Below, one piece after another: positions 311-31,166 of a stretch of 64,000 nucleotides of DNA. The position numbers and the translations under genes are program-made. Origin of the DNA: Deltaproteobacteria bacterium. GTDB taxonomy: Bacteria > Desulfobacterota > SM23-61. The DNA lies in contig VGSF01000003.1 in NCBI GenBank assembly GCA_016875165.1, positions 1 through 64,000 on the forward strand, given 5' to 3'. The notes under the pieces are model-generated. The model was not told where the DNA came from and searched no databases. It saw only the letters and a list, made by a program, of their open reading frames with translations. The first letter of the stretch is position 1. Every line of letters starts with the position of its first letter.

Positions 311-3300
311 ATGGATGCAATTCTTAAATTTCAGGGACTGCTTGAAAAGCTTTTTCAATTCGATGCGTCTGACCTGGATTTCGGTATTTATAGGATTCTG
401 AATTTCAAAAGGAATCAGATAGGGAAATTCATTCGTGAGGATCTGAAAGATACCGTCGAGAACGTCTTTGCAGTACACAAAGATGAGAGGCTGGACAACA
501 TTGGGCTTCAATTGGAGGATGCAAAACAGAAGGTAATACAGACCCTTGGGATGGCCGCCATTCTTGCCACAGGGGAATTGAAGGACGATTTTAAGGGAAC
601 ACCTGTCGGGAGGGACTATCTCGCTATTAAAGCTCAAAAGGAAGAAGCGGAAACCATTGACGAGATAAAGCTGCAGGTCTTCAACGATCTTTATAATTTC
701 TTTGCTCGCTATTATGAGGAAGGAGATTTCGTTCCCCAATACCGCTATTCCATCAAGAATCACAAGTATGCCATTCCCTACAATGGCGAGGAAGTAAAGC
801 TCTACTGGGCAAACTGCGACCAGTATTATACGAAGACAGGCATCCTCTTTCGCGACTATGCCTTTTTCACGGATGCCGGCAAGACCTTCAAGATCATCTT
901 CCGCACTGTCACGGCAAAAGAGGAGCTGGGCTCAAACAAGGCAACGAAGGCCCGGTTCTTTGTTCTGAATGACGATAGCCCGTGGGAAATAAAAGATGAA
1001 AAGACCTTTATTATCCGCTTTCAATACCGTGAACTGAGTAGTGGCGAAGTCAAAAAATACGGGGTTGAGGGCGGCAGCAATACATCCAGGCAGGAAAAGA
1101 TAAACGGCAAAATCCATGAATCCGTTATCGAAGGAATGAAGGATGCTAATCTCAAGGCTTTCCTGGGTGGACCATACAAGAATGATAAACCGCTTCTCCT
1201 TTATCAATTAGGGCGCTTTAGCGCAAAGAATACCAAGGATTATTTCATCCACAAGAACCTGACGAGATTCCTTTCTGAACAATTAGATTACTTCATCAAG
1301 GCCGAGGTAATTTCTCTTGAAACCCTGGAGAAGGAGCGGTTTTTCGATAAGCACATCACCAGGGCTAAAGTTGTCAGAGAAATCGGAGAGAAGATTATCG
1401 ATTTTCTTTCCCAGATTGAGGATTTTCAGAAAAAGCTCTGGGAGAAGAAAAAGTTTGTTCTAAAGACGGAGTATGTCATTACCACGGATCTCGTCCCCGA
1501 GGAATTATATCCCGAAATTCTAAAAAATAAGGCACAGGCAAAGGAATGGAAGGAACTGGGATTTGAAGGGATCAAGTCGATGGCAAACCTGAAGGATAAG
1601 AAGCTCCCCATTGATACGAAACATTTCCCTGAGGAATTCAAGGAAAGGCTGTTGGAACGTCTCACGGAAAGCGCAGACCTGGACGACCTTCTCGACGGCC
1701 TGCTGATTAAAAGCGAGAACTGGCAAGCGTTGAATCTATTACAGGGGAAGTATAGAGAAAAAGTGAAATGCATTTATATTGATCCGCCCTATAACACAGG
1801 GAATGATGAGTTTCTTTATCGAGATCGTTATAAAGATTCCTCATGGATAGGTATGATTGAAAATCGGGTTAGCCTCGCTAAGAACCTCCTAAATGACGGA
1901 GGTTTTATATTCACTAGCATTGATGAGAATGAGATTAATAATCTTGCAAAGGTATTCGACATCATTCTCCCACATAAGGTAGGAATAGCTGTTATTCAAA
2001 CAAATCCTAAAGGCAGAGGACAAGACAGATATTTGGCAACCTCTCACGACTATTTATTTATTGCCGCAAAAAGCGATAAAGCTGAATTCTTAGGGTTACC
2101 CAAAGGTGATGAACAACTTTCAGAATATAATCAGATAGACGAACATGGAAGTTATCGCTTACTCGAACTTCGCAACACTCATAGACAGTTTCACAGGGGG
2201 AACCGCCCCAATTTATGGTATCCTCTGTATGTTGATCCAGGAAGTGGCAGCGTGTCTTGTATAAATCAGAAATATTTCATAGAAGTTCTACCGATATGGA
2301 GCGATGGTTTTGAGGGCTGTTGGACCTGGGGAAGACCGCTTGCCGAAAAAAACGCAGATTTCCTTGTAGGTAGGATTGTTACCGGAAAGTGGAAAATCTA
2401 TCGGAAAGATTATGCAAATAGAAATGGTGATATTGCCACGTACATTCCAAAGAGTATTTGGACTGAGAAAGAAATGCGTACCGATTATGCGCAGCAAGTT
2501 CTAGATCAAACAATGGGAAATAGAATATTCCAATCCCCAAAACCGACTGCATTGATCCAGAGAGCAATGCAACTTACCACGAATCCTGATGAATACATGT
2601 TAGACTTTTTTGCCGGTTCTGGTACAAGCGCACACGCAGTCATTAGCTTAAATACCTTAGAAGCAACCAGGCGAAGATATGTTCTGATAGAAATGGCAAA
2701 TCATTTTGACTCAATTATCTTATCCCGCATTAAGAAAGTTGTATATACTTCGGACTGGGAAGATGGAAAACCACAAAATGCAAACGGAGTTAGCCATTTC
2801 CTCAAATACCAATACCTTGAACAATACGAAGATGCCCTTGACAACCTTGAACTCGTGCCTGATAAAACCGCCCAGAAACTCTTCGGTGATGATTATCTGC
2901 TCAAATACTTTCTGGATTTCGAGACCAAAGGCAACCCTAGTTTACTCAACATAGAGCATCTCAAGAAACCCTTCTCTTATAAGCTCAGGGTGAATCTGGA
3001 GGAGGTGGGTGAGCCACAGGAGGTGGTTGTGGATATACCCGAAACCTTCAATTATCTCCTTGGGCTGAAAGTGAATAAAGTGAAGGTTCGGAAGAATAGG
3101 GGAAAGAAATATCTTTTTACACTTGGCGAGAAAGAGAACCGGGCCGTTGCCGTTGTCTGGCGTGAATATGACGATGAGTGGACGCAGGCGGATTTCAAGA
3201 AAGATAAGGAATTCATCATGGAAGAGCTTGATCCCTGGTCGCCTCAGATTGTCTATGTGAACGGCCAGAGTGTTCTCACCCCGGCATTTGGCGATCATGT

Positions 3301-3361
3301 TGTCGAGATTCGTTCCATCGAACCAGAATTCAAGGCATTGATGGTAAATTCTTTATATTAA
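311..3361 (+). CDS. Type III-like site-specific adenine DNA methyltransferase (Mod)
   Basis: The 1016-residue protein carries the N6-adenine methyltransferase core in the beta-class order. The catalytic DPPY motif (IV, residues 491-494, followed by NTGNDEF) comes before the SAM-binding DFFAGSGTS motif (I, residues 765-773), and the stretch between them probably holds target recognition. About 480 N-terminal residues and the last 200 lie outside the core; I do not recognise their fold. The gene appears complete. A weak GGAG-like site sits at 299-303. The cognate restriction subunit lies downstream at 4388 but is truncated, and a nuclease gene in repeats has come between them. The methyltransferase may therefore now act as an orphan that methylates without restriction. 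Its recognition sequence cannot be read from the sequence. Confidence 0.9.
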   Translation: MDAILKFQGLLEKLFQFDASDLDFGIYRILNFKRNQIGKFIREDLKDTVENVFAVHKDERLDNIGLQLEDAKQKVIQTLGMAAILATGELKDDFKGTPVGRDYLAIKAQKEEAETIDEIKLQVFNDLYNFFARYYEEGDFVPQYRYSIKNHKYAIPYNGEEVKLYWANCDQYYTKTGILFRDYAFFTDAGKTFKIIFRTVTAKEELGSNKATKARFFVLNDDSPWEIKDEKTFIIRFQYRELSSGEVKKYGVEGGSNTSRQEKINGKIHESVIEGMKDANLKAFLGGPYKNDKPLLLYQLGRFSAKNTKDYFIHKNLTRFLSEQLDYFIKAEVISLETLEKERFFDKHITRAKVVREIGEKIIDFLSQIEDFQKKLWEKKKFVLKTEYVITTDLVPEELYPEILKNKAQAKEWKELGFEGIKSMANLKDKKLPIDTKHFPEEFKERLLERLTESADLDDLLDGLLIKSENWQALNLLQGKYREKVKCIYIDPPYNTGNDEFLYRDRYKDSSWIGMIENRVSLAKNLLNDGGFIFTSIDENEINNLAKVFDIILPHKVGIAVIQTNPKGRGQDRYLATSHDYLFIAAKSDKAEFLGLPKGDEQLSEYNQIDEHGSYRLLELRNTHRQFHRGNRPNLWYPLYVDPGSGSVSCINQKYFIEVLPIWSDGFEGCWTWGRPLAEKNADFLVGRIVTGKWKIYRKDYANRNGDIATYIPKSIWTEKEMRTDYAQQVLDQTMGNRIFQSPKPTALIQRAMQLTTNPDEYMLDFFAGSGTSAHAVISLNTLEATRRRYVLIEMANHFDSIILSRIKKVVYTSDWEDGKPQNANGVSHFLKYQYLEQYEDALDNLELVPDKTAQKLFGDDYLLKYFLDFETKGNPSLLNIEHLKKPFSYKLRVNLEEVGEPQEVVVDIPETFNYLLGLKVNKVKVRKNRGKKYLFTLGEKENRAVAVVWREYDDEWTQADFKKDKEFIMEELDPWSPQIVYVNGQSVLTPAFGDHVVEIRSIEPEFKALMVNSLY

Positions 3362-3394
3362 CAGTCTCATAATTGAATTGACATGAGCATTGGA

Positions 3395-3500
3395 AAACCT
3401 TTCGTAACCCCCCTTACCCCCCCTTAAGGTAAGGGGGGAATGGGGGGGTATAAAAGGGGTAATCCCTCCCTTTAGCAAAGGGAGGTCAGGAGGGATTTTA
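3395..3500. repeat. Cluster of G/C-rich palindromes
   Basis: Several short inverted repeats follow each other, for example CCCCCCTTAAGGTAAGGGGGG near 3418-3438 and CCTCCCTTTAGCAAAGGGAGG near 3466-3486. The arms are homopolymer-like C and G runs around an AT-rich centre. They resemble the units at 3574-3619, 3978-4022, 4101-4222 and 4299-4380. Units vary in sequence and have no equal spacers, so this is not a CRISPR array. Some could act as terminators for the methyltransferase transcript. Confidence 0.7.
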
Positions 3501-3573
3501 CAAATCGATGTCTTTTCTATTTTGAGACCGTTAATAAGTATCAAGTTCTTCCGGCTTTTGTGTGGGTGCTTTC

Positions 3574-3619
3574 TCCCTCTATTCCCCCCTTAAGTTAAGG
3601 GGGGATGAAGGGGGGTTAT
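3574..3619 (-). repeat. Inverted repeat, left boundary of DUF559 unit
   Basis: The reverse complement of this stretch matches 3977-4022 almost base for base: TAACCCCCCTTCATCCCCCC, a TTAA palindrome, a G run and AATAGAGGG, with one substitution and one 1-base indel. The two copies therefore enclose the DUF559 gene as long inverted repeats. Confidence 0.8.
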
Positions 3620-3628
3620 GGTGGAGTT

Positions 3629-4006
3629 ATGAAATTCCTTCGGAATGATCCAGCATTAAAGCAACGGCGACGGGAACTGAGGCGTAATCAGACTGAGGCG
3701 GAGAAGGTCCTTTGGGCGCACCTCCGAAGCAAGCAGTTCTATGGAATGAAATTTTTCCGCCAATACAGCATCGGGCCTTATATTTTGGACTTTTACTGTC
3801 CGACCATAAAACTCGCAGTAGAGGTGGACGGCGGGCAGCATAACCAGTGCGAGCGTAAGGAGTATGATGCGGTTCGTTCAGAATATCTGAAGGCAAAGGG
3901 GATCGAGGTCATACGGTTTTGGGACAATGAGGTATTGCTTGATATGGAAAGCGTCCTGTCTGCACTGGGCCTGAAAGTAACCCCCCTTCATCCCCCCTTA
4001 ATTTAA
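3629..4006 (+). CDS. DUF559-family endonuclease-like protein
   Basis: The 125-residue protein matches the DUF559 family, small proteins related to the Vsr/PD-(D/E)XK nuclease fold. It has the family start (RRRELRRNQTEAEKVLW), then GMKFFRQYSIGPYILDFYCP, then EVDGGQH carrying the acidic and His residues expected at the active site, then GIEVIRFWDNEV. I chose the ATG at 3629; an in-frame ATG at 3605 would add eight residues encoded by the boundary repeat. The last residues (TPLHPPLI) and the stop codon lie inside the right boundary repeat. The gene separates the methyltransferase from its restriction partner. No target or partner is known for the family; a DNA-cleaving role is inferred from the fold. 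Confidence 0.85.
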   Translation: MKFLRNDPALKQRRRELRRNQTEAEKVLWAHLRSKQFYGMKFFRQYSIGPYILDFYCPTIKLAVEVDGGQHNQCERKEYDAVRSEYLKAKGIEVIRFWDNEVLLDMESVLSALGLKVTPLHPPLI

Positions 4007-4022
4007 GGGGTGGAATAGAGGG
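3977..4022 (+). repeat. Inverted repeat, right boundary of DUF559 unit
   Basis: Partner of 3574-3619 in the opposite orientation. It encodes the C-terminal residues and stop codon of the DUF559 gene, so gene and repeat are physically merged. Confidence 0.8.
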
Positions 4023-4100
4023 GGTTTATACTTATGTTAAGGGGAGATTACGCATTAAATACCCGGAGGAACCAAGTATCAATTTTGCTGTTTGAAGTCA

Positions 4101-4222
4101 TTTTGAAAAATCCCTCCCCACCTCCCTTTGCCAAAGGGAGGAGAAACATTTCCCCCTTTTGACAAAGGGGGATAATACTAAGCTCTCCCCTTTAGCAAAG
4201 GGGAGTTAGAGGGAATTTTGTC
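4101..4222. repeat. Three consecutive G/C-rich palindromes
   Basis: Three hairpin units lie end to end (CCTCCCTTTGCCAAAGGGAGG near 4121-4141, CCCCCTTTTGACAAAGGGGG near 4152-4171, CTCCCCTTTAGCAAAGGGGAG near 4185-4205), enclosed by outer arms of the AATCCCTCCC/GGGAATTTT type. This fills most of the gap between the DUF559 gene and the restriction-gene remnant; no coding sequence is seen here. Confidence 0.7.
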
Positions 4223-4298
4223 AAAATGTTTTCACTCAATTAGAGTTTTATTAAGAATCTCAAAATAGTCCATACATGGCGGCCATCAATACAAAGAC

Positions 4299-4380
4299 TC
4301 ATAACCCCACCTAACCTCCCCTTATCTTAAGGGGAGGTACATACCCCCTCTTAAATTAAGAGGAGGAAAGGGGGAGTTAA
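4299..4380. repeat. G/C-rich palindrome pair before the restriction-gene remnant
   Basis: Two more units of the same kind (CCTCCCCTTATCTTAAGGGGAGG near 4315-4337 in outline, and CCCTCTTAAATTAAGAGG near 4345-4362). The 3' arm runs to within about 10 bp of the ATG at 4388, where a normal ribosome binding site would be expected and none is seen. Confidence 0.6.
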
Positions 4381-4387
4381 CACCTCT

Positions 4388-5470
4388 ATGAAGATTGAAA
4401 AATATCTTATCCTCAATAAATACCTTCTTTCCCTGTTTGGCGTTGTCGAAGTCAGGGATTTACAGAAAGAATTGGCCGAGAAGCCCGTGGGTGATGACTC
4501 AGATGGGCGGAGTTATTTTGTCAATGTGCTACGTTCTCTGCCCGATCTGCAAAGGGGCAAATTATCCGAAGAGATACTTCTCCACTACGATGGGAACATC
4601 CGTGGTTACGTGGCGAGAATCAATGCCAGACGGGAACCCAAGATTATCCTGAAATACTTCCAGTACCTGGCCGTCCTTTTCGCTGAGATTTATCTCGACG
4701 AACTAAAGAATAGAAAAAAGGGGTTATTGAGTGATCTGAATATATTCCTCGACAGTTATTGTCGTGAGAACGATCTTGGCGACCGAATAAGGAATTTCAC
4801 CGAAGATGACCTGAAAAAACTTGCTTTCTGGATGGCAACGGGGTCCGGAAAGACCTTGCTGCTTCATATCAATTATTACCAGTTCCTTCGGTATAAACTT
4901 TTTTCTCCCGATAACATCATCATGATCACACCTAACGAAGGTCTTTCCAGGCAGCATGCTGAAGAGCTTCAGAAAAGCGGCATCCCGTACAGACTCTACG
5001 GCGGTAATTTGAGCAATGTGGGCCTCCTGCCGGGAGAGAAAGGGATGCTGATCCTGGAGATGACAAAACTGGTGGAAGAGAAAAAAGGAGGGGGCGTGAC
5101 CCTTCCCGTAGAAGTTTTTGAGGGGCAGAACCTTCTTTTTGTGGATGAGGGGCATAAGGGGAAGAAATCAGAGGAGCAAAAGTGGGCAAAGCTGAGAAAC
5201 AGAATCGCAGAGAACGGTTTTGTTTTCGAATACAGCGCCACCTTCGGACAGATACTGAATGAAAGCAATCAAGAAACACTTGAGGAATATGCGAAGGCCA
5301 TCGTCTTTGATTATTCATACCGATACTTTTACCTCGACCGCTATGGGAAGGATTTTTCCGTGCTAAACGTCAAACCTGGCAATCTAAATCAGCAGCAGTT
5401 TCAGGAAACGATGTTCGTCGCCAATCCTGCGGTCTGCGGGGTCGGGCCAAGGTATGTTGTTGATTATTAA
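4388..5470 (+). pseudogene. Truncated type III restriction helicase subunit (Res)
   Basis: The 360-residue product is the N-terminal third of a type III restriction/DEAD-box subunit. It has Walker A in ATGSGKT (near 150-156), a DEGH variant of the DEAH box (253-256) and motif III as SAT in EYSATFG. It breaks off just after QQQFQETMFVAN. The second helicase domain and the endonuclease domain, expected in proteins of roughly 900 residues, are absent, and the last 15 residues look unrelated to the family. Restriction activity is therefore very unlikely. It follows the methyltransferase on the same strand, as in a mod-res operon, but about 1 kb of repeats and the DUF559 unit now separate them. 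Confidence 0.85.
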
Positions 5471-5864
5471 GTGTTAATGTCCCGGCGAGAGGTATTTTCA
5501 GGGCCTATATCGTCTTTTTAGGCCCCGAAAAACGCCTTATAGCCAGCAGGCCTCTTCTCTCCCAAAACAAATCCCTCAAAGCCTTCTATGACTTCTCTCC
5601 CTCTCGCCCGGAAGTCTAATAAGTTTTTCACTTTCTCAATTATGTTTGGACGTGACCAAATACTTCAGGATCGTCAAGCCATATCGCTTCCTGGCTTGAT
5701 TAAACCACTGCAGCCATCGATGCCTATCCTTTTAAAATTTGAAGAAGAATTCTCGTTAATGGCAACGATCGGTGATATACCAGATGTACCCCGGAAGGTA
5801 ATGTCGCTTTTCTCTCGCCCTAAAATCTTGGGGAATACAGCCTTTTTAGCCCCCCAAAAATTCG
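5471..5864. other. Gap between two truncated genes
   Basis: No convincing gene. Two similar stretches occur at 5516-5544 and 5843-5873 (TTTTAGGCCCCGAAAAAC and TTTTAGCCCCCCAAAAAT, each followed by a TTATAG-type end). They may be ends of an inserted or recombined segment that removed the 3' parts of both neighbouring genes. Confidence 0.4.
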
Positions 5865-6230
5865 TTATAGGCCCATTTTAACTGGCAGAAATAGCTGTAC
5901 CTGCTCATGATTCATAAGCCATTCAATTGGTTTATCAAAGTATTCCAGAGGAATCATATCGAGGTATTCTGGCGTGCCCGGGACTTTAAAGTAGGCTAAG
6001 GCGAGGACCGGAAAGCCTCTTGCGGCAATGGGCCTGGCTAAATACTCCGGTTTACCGCCTTCGGAGCCACCAATAACCAGCACTCCCAATTTCTTTGGTG
6101 CACCAACTGTATAGTAGAAATCAGCGATAAACCCGTATTCAGTAAGTTCTGTTTTCGCAGGACCTCCTGCATAGCTAGCACAGGTACATAAAATGCTAAA
6201 TAGGACGAATACATAGCGCAAGACATTCAT
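5865..6230 (-). pseudogene. Truncated acyl-CoA thioesterase/BAAT-type hydrolase
   Basis: The 121-residue product starts with a signal peptide (about 1-21, ending TCASYAG). The start of a BAAT/acyl-CoA thioester hydrolase C-terminal domain follows: GVLVIGGSEGG, then ARPIAARGFPVLALAYF, then PLEYFDKPIEWL. In the family the nucleophile elbow comes directly after this point, and here the reading frame ends within about 15 residues. The catalytic triad is missing, so this is a remnant. The 3' end points at the equally truncated restriction gene. Confidence 0.7.
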
Positions 6231-6299
6231 ATTTTAGCTTTCAGCCTCCGGTACGATCGCCTAAGTCCTTATTTATAACGCAAGGGATACATGATACAA

Positions 6300-6480
6300 A
6301 CTTGAACCTACCGGAACCCCGCCGTAATTCTTGAAAAGCGTATCAAAAAATGGAGGCTGAAACAAGAACTATTCAGAAGGATTTGGCCAAGATGATCGGG
6401 GTAACCATTACCTTGACTTACTCCCCTCAATTTCATACAATTTTACCGGAATAAGAGAAAAGTAGAATCCATTCGGGAAG
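6300..6480 (+). pseudogene. Frameshifted remnant of an XRE-type HTH gene
   Basis: Translation in one frame gives LEKRIKKWRLKQELF and, after a frame change near 6368-6376, QKDLAKMIGVT in a second frame. Joined, these match the start of a common small helix-turn-helix domain in which KRRLELGLFQKDVA is followed by IGV and a second helix. A further piece reading SPQF may be the end of the domain. No intact frame exists. The identification rests on pattern memory only. Confidence 0.4.
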
Positions 6481-6509
6481 CAGAAGAATTTTAATAGAAG
6501 AGGTCCCCC

Positions 6510-7409
6510 ATGAATCAGCGCCGGCCATACCGGTCATTCGTGAGCTATATTGACCGCAGCCGGGAGTACTATGCTGCGCAGGGCTACTCCCAGCCGTATA
6601 CCTGGGCCCACCACGACGACGCCCCCTTCACTCCTCTTAAGAAACCGCTCTCCGAGTGCCGGGTAGGGTTGGTGACGACCGCAGGCAAAATGGAGGCCGA
6701 AGCCGAAGGACAGGGCCGGCGGAAAATCAGGGAATTATACGCGCTGGCGGCAAATCCGGCCCCGAGGCGCATGTTCACTGCCGACCTGTTCTGGGACAAA
6801 GGCGCAACCCACACTGACGACGTCGATAGTTTCCTGCCACTGAACCGTCTATCCGAGTACGCTGCTGCCAGGCGAATCGGGTCGGTGTCGGCCCGCTTCT
6901 ATGGGGTCCCCACCGACTACAGCCAGGGCAGGACGTCGTTGCGGGACGCCCCGCAGATCCTTGAGTGGTGCCGTGAGGATGGTGTAGACGCCCTGCTCCT
7001 CTCGGCACTCTGACCGGTATGCCACCAGACCGTGAGTCTGGTCGCCCGACACCTCGAAGAAAACGGCATGCCTACGGTGGTATTGGGCTCGGCTCGCGAC
7101 ATCGTCGAGGAATGCGGCGTCGCCCGCTTCGTCTTCACCGACTTCCCGCTGGGAAACCCCTGCGGGAAGCCCTGGGACACAAAGATGCAGCACTCGATCG
7201 TAGGAACTGCTCTTGATCTGCTGGCAAGGGCCTGGATGCCCCGCACCACGGTTCAGACGCCGTTTCGCTGGGGCAACGAGGAGTGGCGAGTCGCTTTCAT
7301 GCGGGTCGACGACAGTAACCGCGAAGCGCTCGCCCGGGCGGGAGAAGAGCGCCGCCACCAGCAGGCCGAAGCAAAGAAAGGTGATGGCTACCGCCAGGGC
7401 AAGTCTTAA
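6510..7409 (+). CDS. Selenoprotein of the glycine/betaine reductase component B (GrdB-like) family
   Basis: The reading frame runs 167 codons to a TGA at 7011-7013 and then continues in the same frame for 131 codons to a TAA. Read through, the junction is LLLSAL-U-PVCHQTVSLVARHLEE, a UxxC redox motif where related proteins have CxxC (CPVCHQ). Downstream are the family-like stretches GSARDIVEECGV and FTDFPLGNPCGKP. A hairpin that fits a bacterial SECIS lies directly after the TGA (7024-7042), and selA is present at 29748. The product is therefore predicted as one 299-residue selenoprotein with Sec at residue 168. GrdB itself activates glycine, sarcosine or betaine in reductive deamination; the substrate of this relative is unknown, and no other reductase subunit is nearby. 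The gene looks GC-richer than its flanks, which may indicate transfer. Start: ATG at 6510 after AGAAGAGG. Confidence 0.8.
7024..7042 (+). promoter_or_regulatory. Candidate bacterial SECIS hairpin
   Basis: ACCAGAC (7024-7030) and GTCTGGT (7036-7042) form a perfect 7-bp stem with loop CGTGA. Ten bases separate the TGA from the stem and 17 separate it from the loop, and the second loop base is G. This agrees with the known bacterial SECIS rules (loop about 16-37 nt after UGA, G in the first two loop positions). It would recruit SelB to decode the UGA at 7011. Confidence 0.75.
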
Positions 7410-8012: not shown

Positions 8013-8939
8013 TTAATAGGCGACTTTGTCCAGGCCCTTCAATCCGAGAATCTTCCGCGCCTCCGCTGGCGTAGCGGGCTCAAGCCCGAACTCCCGGGCG
8101 ATGCGCACGATTTTTTCCACTAATTCGGCATTATTCTTGGCCAGTACGCCCTTGCTCACCCGCAGAGCATCCTCCATCCCCACGCGGGCGTTGCCCCCCA
8201 TGAGCAGGGCCGTTGTGCACATGGGCATTTGGTTTATTCCGGCAGCGCAGACCGACCAGACGAAATTCTTTTCTCCAATCTGCCTGCATGCGGATTCATG
8301 CAGGAAGACTAAATTTTGAATATTGGCGGCCATGCCTCCCAGGATGCCCAGAACGAATTGAAGGTAAACCGGGGTTTTCAAAAGGCCGCTTTGGATCATA
8401 AAAGCAACGTTGTCGACCATCCCAGCGTCGTAAACCTCCAACTCCGGTTTGGTCCCATTTTCATTGAAGACCTTGAGAAAAATTCTCATTGATTTAAAGG
8501 TATTCGGAAAAATCAGATCCTCGGTAAATTCCAAATACTGTTTCTCCCAGGGGAACTTGAAATCCTTCATCCGCTCCAGGATGGGGAAAAGGCCGAAATT
8601 CATCGATCCCATGTTAAAGGAGGCCAACTCCGGCTTGAAAGTGGAGACCACTGTCAGCCTTTGTTCCGGAGTCATGCCCAACCCTCCGCCGGTAGTAGTG
8701 CAGATGATCATGTCGCATTTGCTTTTCACTTGGCTGAGAACTTCTTTGAAGAGCTCCGGGTCAGGTGAGGGCTGCCCCGTTTGCGGGTTGCGCACATGAA
8801 TATGCGCCACTGCTGCTCCTGCCTCGTAAGCTTGAATGGCATTATCGGCTATCTGGTCCGGCGTGATGGGAAGGTAAGGACTCATTGTGGGGGTGTGGAT
8901 GGACCCGGTAATGGCCGCTGTGATGACTGCCTTGCTCAT
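8013..8939 (-). CDS. Beta-keto acid cleavage enzyme, BKACE/DUF849 family (copy 1)
   Basis: BKACE enzymes are Zn-dependent and condense a beta-keto acid with acetyl-CoA to release acetoacetate and a new CoA ester. The 308-residue protein is full length. It has the metal-binding HIHVR motif (His46, His48), the N-terminal TAAITGSIHTPTMS stretch and the family end EARKILGLKGLDKV. It is closely similar throughout to copy 2 at 24960, and the two begin with the same 20-residue pattern apart from a few positions. A GAGGAG site precedes the ATG. Unlike copy 2 it stands alone, downstream of the selenoprotein on the opposite strand. The side-chain pocket differs between copies (for example AGMVDNVAF versus VGMINHVAW), so different substrates are likely; neither substrate can be named. 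Confidence 0.92.
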   Translation of the reverse strand: MSKAVITAAITGSIHTPTMSPYLPITPDQIADNAIQAYEAGAAVAHIHVRNPQTGQPSPDPELFKEVLSQVKSKCDMIICTTTGGGLGMTPEQRLTVVSTFKPELASFNMGSMNFGLFPILERMKDFKFPWEKQYLEFTEDLIFPNTFKSMRIFLKVFNENGTKPELEVYDAGMVDNVAFMIQSGLLKTPVYLQFVLGILGGMAANIQNLVFLHESACRQIGEKNFVWSVCAAGINQMPMCTTALLMGGNARVGMEDALRVSKGVLAKNNAELVEKIVRIAREFGLEPATPAEARKILGLKGLDKVAY

Positions 8940-19574: not shown

Positions 19575-21459
19575 ATAGGGGTAGGAACGATGCATTGAAT
19601 TGCATCGCCCCTCCCTCCGAACCGGACTGGCGGATTTCCCGCATCCGGCTCTCCAGTCGGTGGTTTTACCTCGTTGAGGGCTGGAGCAATTTGTGATGGG
19701 CTTCCACAAGGCTGAAAAGCCCATTTTCCCGAAAGAATTTGTTTGGCCAGCGAATATGATCCATATTGCCACTGATACCTTTCAACCCTTTGCTGCGCTT
19801 CCGCAAGATGCTGCGCAGTCGACGCCTGATCCATCCGTCGAGCGCCGGAAACGTCCACTTATGGCTGTGTTTGAAATACTCAAACCACCCCTTAAGCGTT
19901 TGATTCACGTTCGCCGTGATGACAGACAGACTGTGTCCATTGCTGCGCCCGGTCTTGGAACGGATGGCGTCTTTGAGCTTCTTCAGGCTCTTCTTACGCG
20001 GCCGACGTGTACCGCCCTCGAAGTGATACCCGAGAAAATCAAATCCTTGCCCAGGCTCAGCAGTGTCCACCACGCGGGTCTTTTCAGGGTGCAATGCCAG
20101 ACCCCTTTCTGTAATCAGTTGCTGCACCAGATGCAGGGCGTTGTGCGCCTCCGACTCGTCACGACACATGATGACAAAATCATCGGCATAGCGGATCATT
20201 TGAAAACCCGCCGCCTCCATCGCCTCATCAACAGGATGGAGGTAAAGGTTTGCCAACAGAGGGCTGATGACCGCTCCCTGGGGAGTTCCTTGCTCGGGAC
20301 TCCATCGAGACAACCCTTCCAGGATGTCCTGCCCGAGAAATCTCTCCGTCAAGTCCAGCAGGCGTCCGTCGGCGATATACCGGCCGACTTCCCCCATCAG
20401 TCCCTCATGGGGAATGCTGTCAAAATATGCCTTCAGATCGGCATCCACCACTTGGGTGTACCCGGCCTTCAACAGCCGGTCCACCTCCCGCAAGGCATCC
20501 TTGCATCCCCTTTTTGGCCTGAAACCATAGCTGTTTGGTCGAAACCGTATCTCGAAAATGGGCTCGATAACGAGTCGCATCGCCGCCTGCACCACCCGAT
20601 CCCGCACGGCGGGTATACCCAGAGGCCGCTTCTCCGTACTGCCAAGCTTGTCGATGTAAACGCGCTTGATCGGTCGCGGTCGGTAGTTCCCGGTGCGAAG
20701 CTCCTCTTCCAGTCTGGCCATGTTCTCCTTAAGGTTCTTCCCAAACTGCTCCACGCTTTCATGATCCGTCCCTGCACTGCCTCCGTTCCTTCTCACTGCC
20801 TGCCAGGCGGCTTGAAGGGTCGTTGGCCGGTACACCTTATCGATCAGACTGAGCCAAACTCCTCCTTTCACCCCCTTGTCGAGGGCCTCCAGCATGCGAT
20901 CCGTCCATATGGAGTGTTCCACCCAGCCCCAAGACCGAGCTTCTCCCGTTTGTTTAGCCGTCTCCGGCACTGCCACGGGTTTCGTTTCCCTTTCTATGGT
21001 CGGCACGCATCCACCTTCCTGCGCCCCTTCGCTCCACGGCCGTTACACCGCTTCTTCACTACTACGGACGCTCTGACTCCTGCCCGGCCGGCTCTTCGTA
21101 CCCTTATCAGGGGCAGTGAACACCCTTCTTGTTCCGGACAGGTCTCCCTGGTTCACATCGCACGACCTTCCATACATCCCGTCATCAAACACCTGACGCG
21201 CCCTGCCATCGCTTCTCCGCTGCCCACCCAGCGTGACAGGCTTCCCGGGGTCTTTTCCCCGGGTCTGGACTTCGCCCTGAATCCGCAGGCTCGTCGCTAC
21301 GCACGGCCGAATCATGTTCGTTATCCTACGGGCTGCATGTTCGCCTCTGGTTGCTCTCCACCCCGCCTCACGGCGACGCAGTTGCCGTCGGCTACCGGGG
21401 GTGGGCATCCCCCGAGAGAGGACTTGCACCTCTCAAATCGCGCCTGCTCCCAGGCGCAC
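19575..21459 (-). mobile_element. Group II intron, probably class IIC
   Basis: Read on the minus strand, the intron begins GTGCGCC at 21459. It encodes a reverse transcriptase/maturase and ends about 85 bp after a recognisable domain V: GAGCCGGATGCGG, GAAA-type region, then CAGTCCGGTTC (19625-19657). Domain VI and a terminal AT lie near 19575. The 5' exon directly upstream is ATTCCGGC-GGAA-GCCGGAAT followed by CC, a terminator-like hairpin of the kind class IIC introns use as insertion site. The intron splits a TGATGA/TCATCA element. The boundaries are exact to within a few bases at the 3' end. Confidence 0.88.
19666..21006 (-). CDS. Group II intron reverse transcriptase/maturase
   Basis: The 446-residue protein has the reverse transcriptase blocks PLGIPAVRDRVVQAA, DADLKAYFD (188-196), QGTPQG (239-244) and catalytic YADD (273-276). 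The maturase domain (LKGWFEYFKHS) follows. It ends with SLVEAH and no HNH endonuclease domain, as in class IIC. It should promote splicing of its host RNA and, by reverse transcription, insertion at new hairpins. All catalytic residues are present, so the intron may be active. A long plus-strand frame over the same region is a shadow. Confidence 0.95.
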   Translation of the reverse strand: MPTIERETKPVAVPETAKQTGEARSWGWVEHSIWTDRMLEALDKGVKGGVWLSLIDKVYRPTTLQAAWQAVRRNGGSAGTDHESVEQFGKNLKENMARLEEELRTGNYRPRPIKRVYIDKLGSTEKRPLGIPAVRDRVVQAAMRLVIEPIFEIRFRPNSYGFRPKRGCKDALREVDRLLKAGYTQVVDADLKAYFDSIPHEGLMGEVGRYIADGRLLDLTERFLGQDILEGLSRWSPEQGTPQGAVISPLLANLYLHPVDEAMEAAGFQMIRYADDFVIMCRDESEAHNALHLVQQLITERGLALHPEKTRVVDTAEPGQGFDFLGYHFEGGTRRPRKKSLKKLKDAIRSKTGRSNGHSLSVITANVNQTLKGWFEYFKHSHKWTFPALDGWIRRRLRSILRKRSKGLKGISGNMDHIRWPNKFFRENGLFSLVEAHHKLLQPSTR

Positions 21460-24896: not shown

Positions 24897-24959
24897 ATTG
24901 TTTTTAAAAGGGTGGCTTGAAGCCATATGCCGGGGAATGAACCACAAGGAGGAAAATAT

Positions 24960-25880
24960 ATGAACAAGATGATTATTACCGCAGCCATCACCGGCAGTAT
25001 TCATACACCCACCATGAGCGATTACCTTCCTATTACCCCGGACCAGATTGTGGAAGATGCCGTGGGGGCCTGGAAAGCTGGCGCGGCAATTGCCCATATT
25101 CATGTCCGTAACCCTGAAACAGGTCAACCCATTACCGATCTGAACCTGTTCCGGGAAGTGGGTGCCAAGATCAAGAAACAGTGTAACCTCATTCTTTGCC
25201 CCACGACCGGGGGTGGGCTGGGCATGACCACCGAGGAAAGGGTTGCTCAGGTGCCTTTTTTAAAGCCGGAATTGGCCTCTTTGAACATGGGTTCGCTTTC
25301 CATCGGCATCTTTAAGCTGGCCGAAAAGTACGACAAGTTCAAATTCTCCTGGGAACCAGAATACATCAAGTTTACCTATGACTATTCCTTCCCCAACACC
25401 TTTAAGACCCTGGAAGTATTCAGCAAGGCCATGCTGGATGCAGGAACGAAACCGGAGTGTGAAATTTACGAAGTGGGCATGATCAACCATGTCGCTTGGC
25501 TGGTAGAGCGAGGGCTTATCAAGAGACCGCCCCATATGCAGTTTGTTCTCGGGCTTTTCGGCGGCATGCCAGCCACAGCGCAAAACCTCGTCTTCCTTTA
25601 TGATACAGCCAAGCGGCAGTTCGATGATTTCACCTGGTCGGTTGCGGCGGCCGGAAAGGATCAAATACGCATAGGGGCGATGGCCATGGCCATGGGGGGC
25701 CATGTCCGGGTAGGATTGGAGGACTCCCTCTATGCCGGCAAAGGAATAATGGCAAAGAGCAGTGCTGAACAAGTGGAAATGGTGGTTCGTATGGCTAATG
25801 TCTTGAGCATCGATGTGGCCACTCCGGACGAGGCCAGAGAAATGCTTGGATTAAAGGGATTGGACAAGGTCAATTATTAA
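24960..25880 (+). CDS. Beta-keto acid cleavage enzyme, BKACE/DUF849 family (copy 2)
   Basis: This 306-residue paralogue of the protein at 8013 has HIHVR with the metal ligands at 46 and 48, CPTTGGGLGMT, and the family end EAREMLGLKGLDKVNY. The start is the ATG at 24960 with GGAGG about 8 bases upstream. It sits directly behind the TRAP genes and before a 3-hydroxyacyl-CoA dehydrogenase-like gene. A plausible scheme is import of a 3-hydroxy acid, oxidation to a beta-keto acid, then transfer cleavage with acetyl-CoA. BKACE and L-carnitine dehydrogenase occur together in known carnitine degradation; that substrate is a possibility here, not a conclusion. Confidence 0.93.
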   Translation: MNKMIITAAITGSIHTPTMSDYLPITPDQIVEDAVGAWKAGAAIAHIHVRNPETGQPITDLNLFREVGAKIKKQCNLILCPTTGGGLGMTTEERVAQVPFLKPELASLNMGSLSIGIFKLAEKYDKFKFSWEPEYIKFTYDYSFPNTFKTLEVFSKAMLDAGTKPECEIYEVGMINHVAWLVERGLIKRPPHMQFVLGLFGGMPATAQNLVFLYDTAKRQFDDFTWSVAAAGKDQIRIGAMAMAMGGHVRVGLEDSLYAGKGIMAKSSAEQVEMVVRMANVLSIDVATPDEAREMLGLKGLDKVNY

Positions 25881-28565: not shown

Positions 28566-29734
28566 ACATGAGCTACAAGGACCGCCTTAATTTCAATTTT
28601 CACATCCCCACCCGGATTGTCTTTGGTGAAGGAGCGCTCAAGGAAACAGTTAAGGAGATGGATAGTCTGGGGATGCGCCAAGCCCTGGTGGTCACGGATG
28701 TAACGCTCAAAGATACGCCGATGGTTAAGTCTCTATTGGATCACTTGGGCAATAAGGCCGCTTCGCTCTACGCCGAAGCCATCCCGGATTCTTCCGTCGA
28801 GGTGGTCAACCGGGGAGCCCAGGTTTTTTGCGAGGCCCGCGCCGACGGGCTGATCTCCATCGGTGGGGGTTCCACCATGGACACAACCAAGGCCATCGGC
28901 GTATTAGCCAAAAAAGGGAAGAATGACTTAAAAGAATTCCTGGGGTTTTCTAAAGTCGGCGAACCGATCGTTCCCCATATCGCCATCCCCACAACTTCGG
29001 GTACAGCCAGTGAAGTTACCATGTTCGCCACTATCAAAGACCACGAGACCAAAATAAAAAACCTGATGTCCGATCCTTTTCTCATTCCTCGCGTAGCTAT
29101 CCTCGACCCTTTGCTCACGGTCGGCCTTCCCCCCGTGATGACCGCTGCCACGGGAATGGATGCCATGTCCCATGCGGTCGAGAGTTTTCATGCCCGGGGC
29201 TATGAACCCATCGCTGATGGTCTTGCCCTGCAAGCCATCCGCTTGATAGTTCAGTACCTTCCCCGCTGCCTGGAAAAAGGGGATGATGTCGAGGCTCGGG
29301 GCATGCAAGCCATTGCTTCCACTATGGCCGGAATGGCTTTCCAGAATGCTCTGGTAGGTTGCGTGCACGGCATGGCCCACGCTCTGGGAGGCATGTATGG
29401 GCTTCATCACGGGCTGGCCAACGCCATCCTGCTTTCTCATGGAATACGGTTCAATATGCCGGTCAGCGCTCACCGTTACCGGCAGGTAGGCGAAGCCTTA
29501 GGCCTGGACCCCGGAGGAAAGAACGATGCCGAAATCGGGGAGATGGCAGCCAGGGCTATCGAAAACTTCACCAGGCAGCTTGGGCTTCCGCAAAGACTTT
29601 CCCAGGTGAATATTCCCAAGGACAACCTGGGAGAAGTGGCTAAGCTGGCTGTGGTTGACCCGGGTATGCGTTCCAACATCCGCAAAGTCACTGACCCCCA
29701 GGAAATCACTGCCGTCCTGCTGGCTGCCTGGTAA
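28562..29734 (+). CDS. Iron-containing alcohol dehydrogenase
   Basis: Group III NAD(P)-dependent alcohol dehydrogenase. The nucleotide-binding GGGSTMDTTK is at 101-110. The metal ligands fit D200 and H204 (MDAMSHAVES), H269 (CVHGMAHALGG) and H283 (GLHHGLANA). All four are present and length (390) is normal, so it should be active on an alcohol or aldehyde. It lies in a tight run with selA 13 bp downstream, which is an unusual partner. Confidence 0.93.
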   Translation: MNMSYKDRLNFNFHIPTRIVFGEGALKETVKEMDSLGMRQALVVTDVTLKDTPMVKSLLDHLGNKAASLYAEAIPDSSVEVVNRGAQVFCEARADGLISIGGGSTMDTTKAIGVLAKKGKNDLKEFLGFSKVGEPIVPHIAIPTTSGTASEVTMFATIKDHETKIKNLMSDPFLIPRVAILDPLLTVGLPPVMTAATGMDAMSHAVESFHARGYEPIADGLALQAIRLIVQYLPRCLEKGDDVEARGMQAIASTMAGMAFQNALVGCVHGMAHALGGMYGLHHGLANAILLSHGIRFNMPVSAHRYRQVGEALGLDPGGKNDAEIGEMAARAIENFTRQLGLPQRLSQVNIPKDNLGEVAKLAVVDPGMRSNIRKVTDPQEITAVLLAAW

Positions 29735-29747
29735 GCGCCAAAGAATT

Positions 29748-31166
29748 ATGGAACCTGAGGATAGACAACGCTACTTAAAAAACCTTCCCGCGGTTGACGA
29801 ACTTCTGCGCCATCCCCAAATTCAATCTCACTTAAAAATTTTTTCCAGGGAGTGGATCATTGGATCCATCCGCAGAACACTTAACAAGAAGCGTCAGGCC
29901 ATCATGATAAGTAATGATCCACACGAGGCTGCCTCAGTCAGTCTGCTCCCGGAGGAATTGCTCGCTGCCGTGGAGGAAGAAATCAGTAAGGCCTCCCGTC
30001 CTTCCCTCCGCCGGGTGATCAATGCCACGGGCGTGGTCTTGCATACCAACCTGGGCAGGGCTCCCCTGGCAGCGGAAGTTTGTAAGCGCCTCTCCGAGAT
30101 TGCCGGCGGGTATTCCAACCTGGAATTCGATCTGGTCTCGGGCGAGCGCGGCTCACGGTATGAGCATGTGGAAGAGATCCTCCGCCAGCTTTCCGGCGCG
30201 GAATCGGCCATGGTCGTTAATAACAACGCCGGAGCCGTCCTGTTAGCTCTGAACAGCCTGGCCGAAGGAAAAGAAGTAATTGTTTCGCGGGGTCAATTGG
30301 TGGAGATTGGCGGCTCTTTCCGCATTCCGGACGTGATGAAAAAAAGCGGGGTTAGATTAGCTGAAGTAGGAACCACCAACCGCACCCGCCTTGAGGATTA
30401 TGAACGAGCCATCAACCAGGAGACGGCCCTGTTACTCAAAGTGCATACCAGCAACTTTCGCATCCTGGGTTTTACGGCCGAGGTTTCTTTGAAGGACTTG
30501 GTCGCCCTGGGGCGGGCCAAAGGCTTGCCGGTGATGGAAGACCTGGGAAGCGGATGCTTCGTAGACCTCTCCCAGTACGGGATAGAAAAGGAGCCAACGG
30601 TCCAAGACGCTATAGAGGCCGGGGCGGGCATAATCACCTTCAGTGGAGATAAACTATTGGGCGGGCCTCAAGCGGGGATCATTCTGGGGCAAAAAAAACA
30701 TCTTGACATAATAAAAAAGAATCCATTAACTCGAGCCTTGAGGATCGACAAACTCACTCTGGCCGGGTTGGAATATACTCTCCGCTTATATTTCAACAGA
30801 GCCTCGGCCATCGAAAAAATTCCGGTTATGCGCATGCTTTCCTGTCCGGCAGAAAAACTAAAAAGCCGGGTCAAGCGTCTCCAGCGCAAGTTGACCGGGG
30901 ACCTGTCCCATGCCTTCCAGGTGAGCCTGAGGGAAGAAATCTCCCAGGTGGGGGGGGGAGCCTTGCCTTTGCAGGGTCTGCCCACGCAGGTTATTGCCCT
31001 TCGCCCCCTGAAAATATCCGCAGCCAGCATGGAGGAACGATTGAGAAAGCTCAACCCGGCGGTGATTGCCCGCGTGCAAGAAGGAGAGATTCTCCTGGAC
31101 TTGAGGACAGTGGCCGAAAGCGAGGAAAGGGAACTGATCGAAGGAGTGCGCCAGGTTTTGGAATAA
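29748..31166 (+). CDS. selA: L-seryl-tRNA(Sec) selenium transferase
   Basis: SelA is a PLP enzyme that converts seryl-tRNA(Sec) to selenocysteinyl-tRNA(Sec) using selenophosphate. The 472-residue protein has the family start (LPAVDELLRHP), NATGVVLHTNLGRAPL (92-107) and the PLP-binding lysine in FSGDKLLGGPQAG (Lys302). I chose the ATG at 29748; upstream in-frame residues are not family sequence. selB, selD and selC are not in the window. Its presence supports reading the UGA at 7011 as selenocysteine. It is followed 10 bp later by an HNH gene. Confidence 0.95.
   Translation: MEPEDRQRYLKNLPAVDELLRHPQIQSHLKIFSREWIIGSIRRTLNKKRQAIMISNDPHEAASVSLLPEELLAAVEEEISKASRPSLRRVINATGVVLHTNLGRAPLAAEVCKRLSEIAGGYSNLEFDLVSGERGSRYEHVEEILRQLSGAESAMVVNNNAGAVLLALNSLAEGKEVIVSRGQLVEIGGSFRIPDVMKKSGVRLAEVGTTNRTRLEDYERAINQETALLLKVHTSNFRILGFTAEVSLKDLVALGRAKGLPVMEDLGSGCFVDLSQYGIEKEPTVQDAIEAGAGIITFSGDKLLGGPQAGIILGQKKHLDIIKKNPLTRALRIDKLTLAGLEYTLRLYFNRASAIEKIPVMRMLSCPAEKLKSRVKRLQRKLTGDLSHAFQVSLREEISQVGGGALPLQGLPTQVIALRPLKISAASMEERLRKLNPAVIARVQEGEILLDLRTVAESEERELIEGVRQVLE

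Follow-up and report, generated by a model that had tools for sequence, protein, structure and literature searches.

Among the established families of selenoproteins are GrdB and PrdB (PMC13188914). In the scheme proposed for PrdB, selenocysteine (Sec) attacks the alpha-carbon of pyruvoyl-bound proline, and a cysteine then cleaves the selenoether (PMC3091704). An attack of Sec on the C-F bond of fluoroacetate, with FarE as the partner, has been proposed for the GrdB-like protein FarB (PMC10838667), and a selenoprotein listed as "proline reductase" was recorded for Anaeromyxobacter and Geobacter by Zhang et al. 2006 (PMC1794560). Here we compare with these systems a deltaproteobacterial locus in the window, i.e., the whole stretch of 64,000 nucleotides that was analysed, for which a GrdB-like selenoprotein had been proposed from the DNA letters (hereafter, the original prediction).

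Results

The reading frame around the UGA codon

Ordinary gene calling splits the locus into two genes, 6510-7013 (167 aa) and 7032-7409 (125 aa), just as the original prediction had held. Translation of the full frame confirmed that it is open on either side of the TGA, which is the only one in frame (Table 1). The orthologues, at 59-95% identity, could be aligned over both flanks of the UGA, and the relatives retain the protein through to its C-terminal end. Downstream of the UGA, substitutions were mostly synonymous in most of the pairs compared, indicating that this part is under protein-level selection. Cys171 was conserved in at least 90% of the sequences in the orthologue alignment A1.

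Table 1. Coordinates of the predicted selenoprotein gene, its elements and selA in the window.
Feature	Position	Strand	Basis or remark
Predicted PrdB/GrdB-superfamily selenoprotein CDS	6510..7409	+	299 aa via UGA readthrough; stop TAA 7407-7409
Sec codon UGA (near certain)	7011..7013	+	residue 168, motif LUPVCHQ
Cys171 of UxxC motif	7020..7022	+	presumed resolving residue; conservation in alignment
Predicted bacterial SECIS stem-loop	7024..7042	+	synonymous freeze, covariation, single-sequence fold
selA	29655..31166	+	TIGR00474 623.6 bits (cut-off 267.9); PF03841 536 bits

A stem-loop downstream of the UGA

The hairpin begins 10 nt past the TGA and consists of 7 bp, formed by 7024-7030 (ACCAGAC) with 7036-7042 (GTCTGGT), and of a loop at 7031-7035 (CGTGA). 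The number of pairs, the UGA-to-loop distance of 17 nt and the G in the second loop position (7032) all agree with what had been claimed. Folded alone, the hairpin was not significant (z -0.88; 37 of 200 shuffles were as stable or more), so that the caution in the original prediction, that each point is weak by itself, was correct.

We found that codons 172-177 (CAC CAG ACC GTG AGT CTG) show zero synonymous variation across 18 orthologues, whereas elsewhere a single one among 140 conserved sites was invariant in its codon. Among 26 diverse homologues, compensatory double-sided changes occurred at 7/7 pairs, the proportion of paired cells was 92.9%, as compared to 65.6% in shuffles and 24-41% when the structure was slid, and the covariation score was 0.71 versus 0.19. 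The synonymous-freeze and covariation tests cover different sequence ranges and use different signals. Judged from these comparisons, the predicted RNA element is real, being far beyond chance once homologues are considered.

Homologues and the Sec machinery

Homologues were taken from whole genomes, in a 395-genome sample of the phylum, and from GTDB contigs. A match was present in 96 of the 395 phylum genomes, and 124 of 130 matches carried an in-frame TGA; the six others comprised four fragments, one Gly form (L108) and one Thr form (L112). The TGA stood at the same U-P/G-x-C/D position wherever the motif was displayed, except that a small number of classic GrdB copies have UGTA. TGA orthologues were also found in Ilumatobacter nonamiensis (Actinomycetota), Reyranella and a Burkholderiales MAG, and the codon is thus shared by orthologues of at least three phyla (Desulfobacterota/Myxococcota, Pseudomonadota and Actinomycetota). 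A tRNA-Sec scoring 63-75 bits was detected in six orthologue genomes, including these three. No homologue was found in the phage records searched.

The comparison of Cys and Sec homologues near residue 168, which the original prediction had suggested as a check, yielded plasmid-borne Cys orthologues in Roseomonas haemaphysalidis (CPVC, 45% identity, WP_207415257.1) and Haematobacter massiliensis (CPIC, 41% identity, WP_035710215.1). The original prediction had also stated that the UxxC motif falls where related proteins have CxxC. This holds only for rare alphaproteobacterial orthologues, and nearly all of the relatives recovered have Sec. Among the TGA-less matches, L108:5265-6068 (+) is PrdB-like and has Gly in place of Sec (PGGGLCNRS versus PGUGLCNRS in its relatives) in an otherwise intact frame, which would reflect either loss of the active site or a fault in the assembly. 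L112 (G041:C168:10857-11471) is GrdB-like with Thr at the Sec position, and its genome also has several Sec-bearing GrdB copies.

The selA gene expected in the window was recovered there (Table 1), on the same 130-kb contig as the selenoprotein gene, and a search of the genome for selB, selC and selD, likewise suggested at the outset, detected all three, at 356.5, 72.6 and 374.7 bits, respectively. The selD of this genome (G000:C109:3689-4609) has one in-frame TGA, as expected for a Sec-containing SelD.

A genome-wide reassignment of UGA, for example to Trp or Gly, is vanishingly improbable and was rejected: we found no point in its favour, of the 33 frames in the window that stay open for 300 codons or more, 10 end in TGA, which argues against reassignment, and both tRNA-Sec and SelB are present. 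The reading of the UGA as an ordinary stop, arising from a nonsense mutation, a pseudogene or a sequencing error, is compatible with a lone sequence and with the insignificance of the lone hairpin. It was nevertheless rejected as highly improbable, given the TGA shared across phyla, the frozen and covarying hairpin and the retained C-terminal end. The view that Sec is much likelier than a nonsense mutation is therefore sustained by three independent lines of evidence, namely the conserved TGA, the constrained SECIS and the full Sec machinery. From these sequence data, it is near certain that the UGA is a Sec codon, in which case the two called fragments are one enzyme. Its decoding as Sec by SelB and tRNA-Sec, as directed by the stem-loop, is strongly supported by the same comparisons.

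Family placement

The best curated model was that of PrdB (TIGR04483), which aligned with residues 38-252 at 93.9 bits (E 1e-26), whereas its equivalog cut-off is 300 bits and a true PrdB scores 422.6. The GrdB-type NCBIfam models gave 25.8-47.8 bits (TIGR01918, 36.3 versus a cut-off of 65.45), and the Pfam model GRDB (PF07355) gave 14.2 bits versus a gathering score of 22. The protein showed 30% identity to Terrisporobacter PrdB, with Sec168 aligned to Sec151 of PrdB. Its motif, U168-P-V-C171-H-Q-T174, contains UxxC but lacks the UxxCxxC of GrdB. Phylogenetic analysis grouped the window protein with its orthologues and with the two Cys forms in one clade (support 100/99), separate from PrdB and classic GrdB.

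The distant likeness to GrdB that had been proposed is thus only partly upheld: the scores do fall below the GrdB cut-offs, but PrdB is closer (93.9 bits versus at most 47.8), and its cut-off is likewise not reached. By these results, the protein is a member of the GrdB/PrdB superfamily with a clade of its own, while an identity as PrdB or as GrdB is left unsupported. The AlphaFold model of the protein was good (pLDDT 87, pTM 0.87). A search of PDB sequences gave one chance match (E 0.17), and a PDB fold search with the model gave no match at E <= 0.001.

The genome has one paralogue, also with a TGA, on contig C51. This gene (G000:C51:29743-30504; L109, minus strand, about 5,740-6,565) encodes a second PrdB-like selenoprotein, with 32% identity, and adjoins genes for an enoyl-CoA hydratase, a URO-D type protein and an acetamidase/formamidase. 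Its motif is UPLD, with Asp in place of the resolving Cys, and UxxD also occurs in L015, L016, L084, L085 and L087.

Partner subunits and gene neighbourhood

The original prediction had noted no other reductase subunit nearby, and this absence extends genome-wide for the pyruvoyl subunit and GrdA. The model of the pyruvoyl subunit (GrdE/PrdA, PF09338) had no match in this genome or in nine other orthologue-bearing genomes, and GrdA was not found in this genome or, with one exception, in the other orthologue genomes searched; these absences refer to draft genomes, the present one being 99.2% complete and 7.1% contaminated. Since PF09338 had given no match in the initial control genomes either, genomes with classic GrdB served as the positive control, and three of these from the phylum gave strong matches; the model also recognises PrdA. 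At the level of gene content, this genome-wide absence supports a stand-alone subfamily that does not depend on the pyruvoyl subunit known from the glycine and D-proline reductases.

In the Myxococcota MAG behind L047, a GrdA with an in-frame TGA was observed (G060:C42:702-1106), with no PF09338 match. GrdB-like selenoproteins with the motif UPxCTRAVGx were also observed in L023, L030 and G012:C524, in genomes with no PF09338 match; the frames are 414-420 aa in L023 and L030, and that of G012:C524 is cut by the contig end. They are perhaps another partner-less branch.

Once spurious overlapping frames and the widespread response-regulator domains are set aside, no neighbour was common to three or more orthologue loci, and consequently no substrate can be inferred from operon context. 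Neither a thioredoxin gene nor a stress regulon was linked to the selenoprotein gene in an operon. Inspection by eye showed a flavin reductase-like gene upstream in L040 and L043 and, in L045, a GST-like gene, both as isolated occurrences. Elsewhere in the window, a group II intron end (19575-21006; Rfam RF00029, 54.4 bits) lies beside a minus-strand reverse transcriptase frame, and a mod-like DNA methylase, a DUF559 protein and a short restriction/helicase frame (360 aa) follow one another at 311-5470, an arrangement suggestive of a disrupted type III restriction system. Genes for BKACE (beta-keto acid cleavage enzyme) lie at 8013-8939 (-) and 24927-25880 (+), the second directly downstream of TRAP transporter genes.

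These data bear on two other possible functions. One is an amine-type reductase like PrdB, in which a carbonyl subunit from another locus, either diverged or of unrelated origin, would activate an amino acid or betaine for attack by Sec. PrdB is indeed the nearest curated family, the scaffold around Sec is conserved, and partners can diverge, since the processing cysteines are missing from FarE and from the betaine-type GrdI (PMC10838667). We consider this reading unlikely, however, as PF09338 is silent in ten orthologue genomes and yet matches where classic GrdB occurs, and as no gene is kept beside the selenoprotein gene. The other is a non-turnover role in the handling of selenium or metals, such as soft metals or organometals bound via UxxC. 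UxxC/CxxC pairs bind metal in other selenoproteins, and the genomic context is uninformative. This function appears improbable, as inspection of the neighbours by eye revealed no metal-resistance genes, and the Asp for Cys in the UPLD clade of the paralogue is odd for a two-ligand site.

Discussion

We favour, with a probability of about 0.7, the reading that the gene encodes a stand-alone, thiol-dependent selenoenzyme of the GrdB/PrdB superfamily, in which Sec168, inserted under the direction of the SECIS, would be the nucleophile and Cys171 the resolving residue, and which would act on a small electrophile in a protective role. With no pyruvoyl subunit to activate it, the substrate must itself be electrophilic. 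The Sec168 selenolate may thus attack a small electrophile that is reactive without forming a Schiff base, candidates being a peroxide or a compound in which halide, sulfonium or quaternary ammonium serves as a good leaving group on carbon. Cys171 would then displace the product, leaving an Se-S bond that might be re-reduced by a thioredoxin-type donor.

The proposed C-F attack by FarB, although made with FarE as the partner, is one precedent for such chemistry. Another is the peroxidase activity reported for GrdB (Grobe et al. 2007); as both FarB and betaine reductase retain a GrdE-type subunit, the precedent for a wholly lone B protein rests on that report. The role of the enzyme would most likely be detoxification or redox maintenance rather than amino-acid fermentation. 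Reyranella, Ilumatobacter, Roseomonas and Haematobacter are lineages that we take to be aerobic, and a protective role fits such hosts better than fermentation does.

Extending this to the whole clade, we tentatively propose a pyruvoyl-independent branch of the superfamily, composed of single-subunit selenoenzymes and alphaproteobacterial Cys forms that might cleave C-X bonds (halide, onium) or peroxides alone, in at least three phyla beyond the Stickland fermenters; we hold this broader proposal to be possible, though somewhat doubtful. If the branch is indeed pyruvoyl-independent, the Sec-bearing domain could be catalytic alone, the chemistry of the superfamily would be wider than known, and its range would extend to lineages other than amino-acid fermenters. 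The analysis joins two fragments of faulty gene calling into a single selenoenzyme and delimits a subfamily which the NCBIfam and Pfam models reach only below cut-off, and the natural Cys orthologues offer a ready Sec/Cys comparison.

In the literature searched, we found no account of the present clade, and a separate clade without the pyruvoyl partner seems to be undescribed, although PrdB-type deltaproteobacterial selenoproteins have been known since 2006. The entries of Zhang et al. 2006 are also of this PrdB type; they were lumped as proline reductase, and membership of the present clade was not established there (PMC1794560). The window protein shares its size class and the UxxC motif with PrdB (TIGR04483), but is about 60 residues longer, falls into a separate clade and is encoded in a genome without PrdA. 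To GrdB/GrdF/GrdH, protein B of glycine/sarcosine/betaine reductase (PF07355, TIGR01917/01918), it is homologous in the Sec-bearing C-terminal part, but it has 299 aa as compared to about 435, Thr174 replaces the second Cys of UxxCxxC, and its genome, unlike those systems, has neither GrdE nor GrdA. Also close are the Roseomonas and Haematobacter proteins, which bear the generic NCBI name "Glycine/sarcosine/betaine reductase selenoprotein B family protein"; they belong to the same clade and have the same length, but form a sister branch in which Cys replaces Sec.
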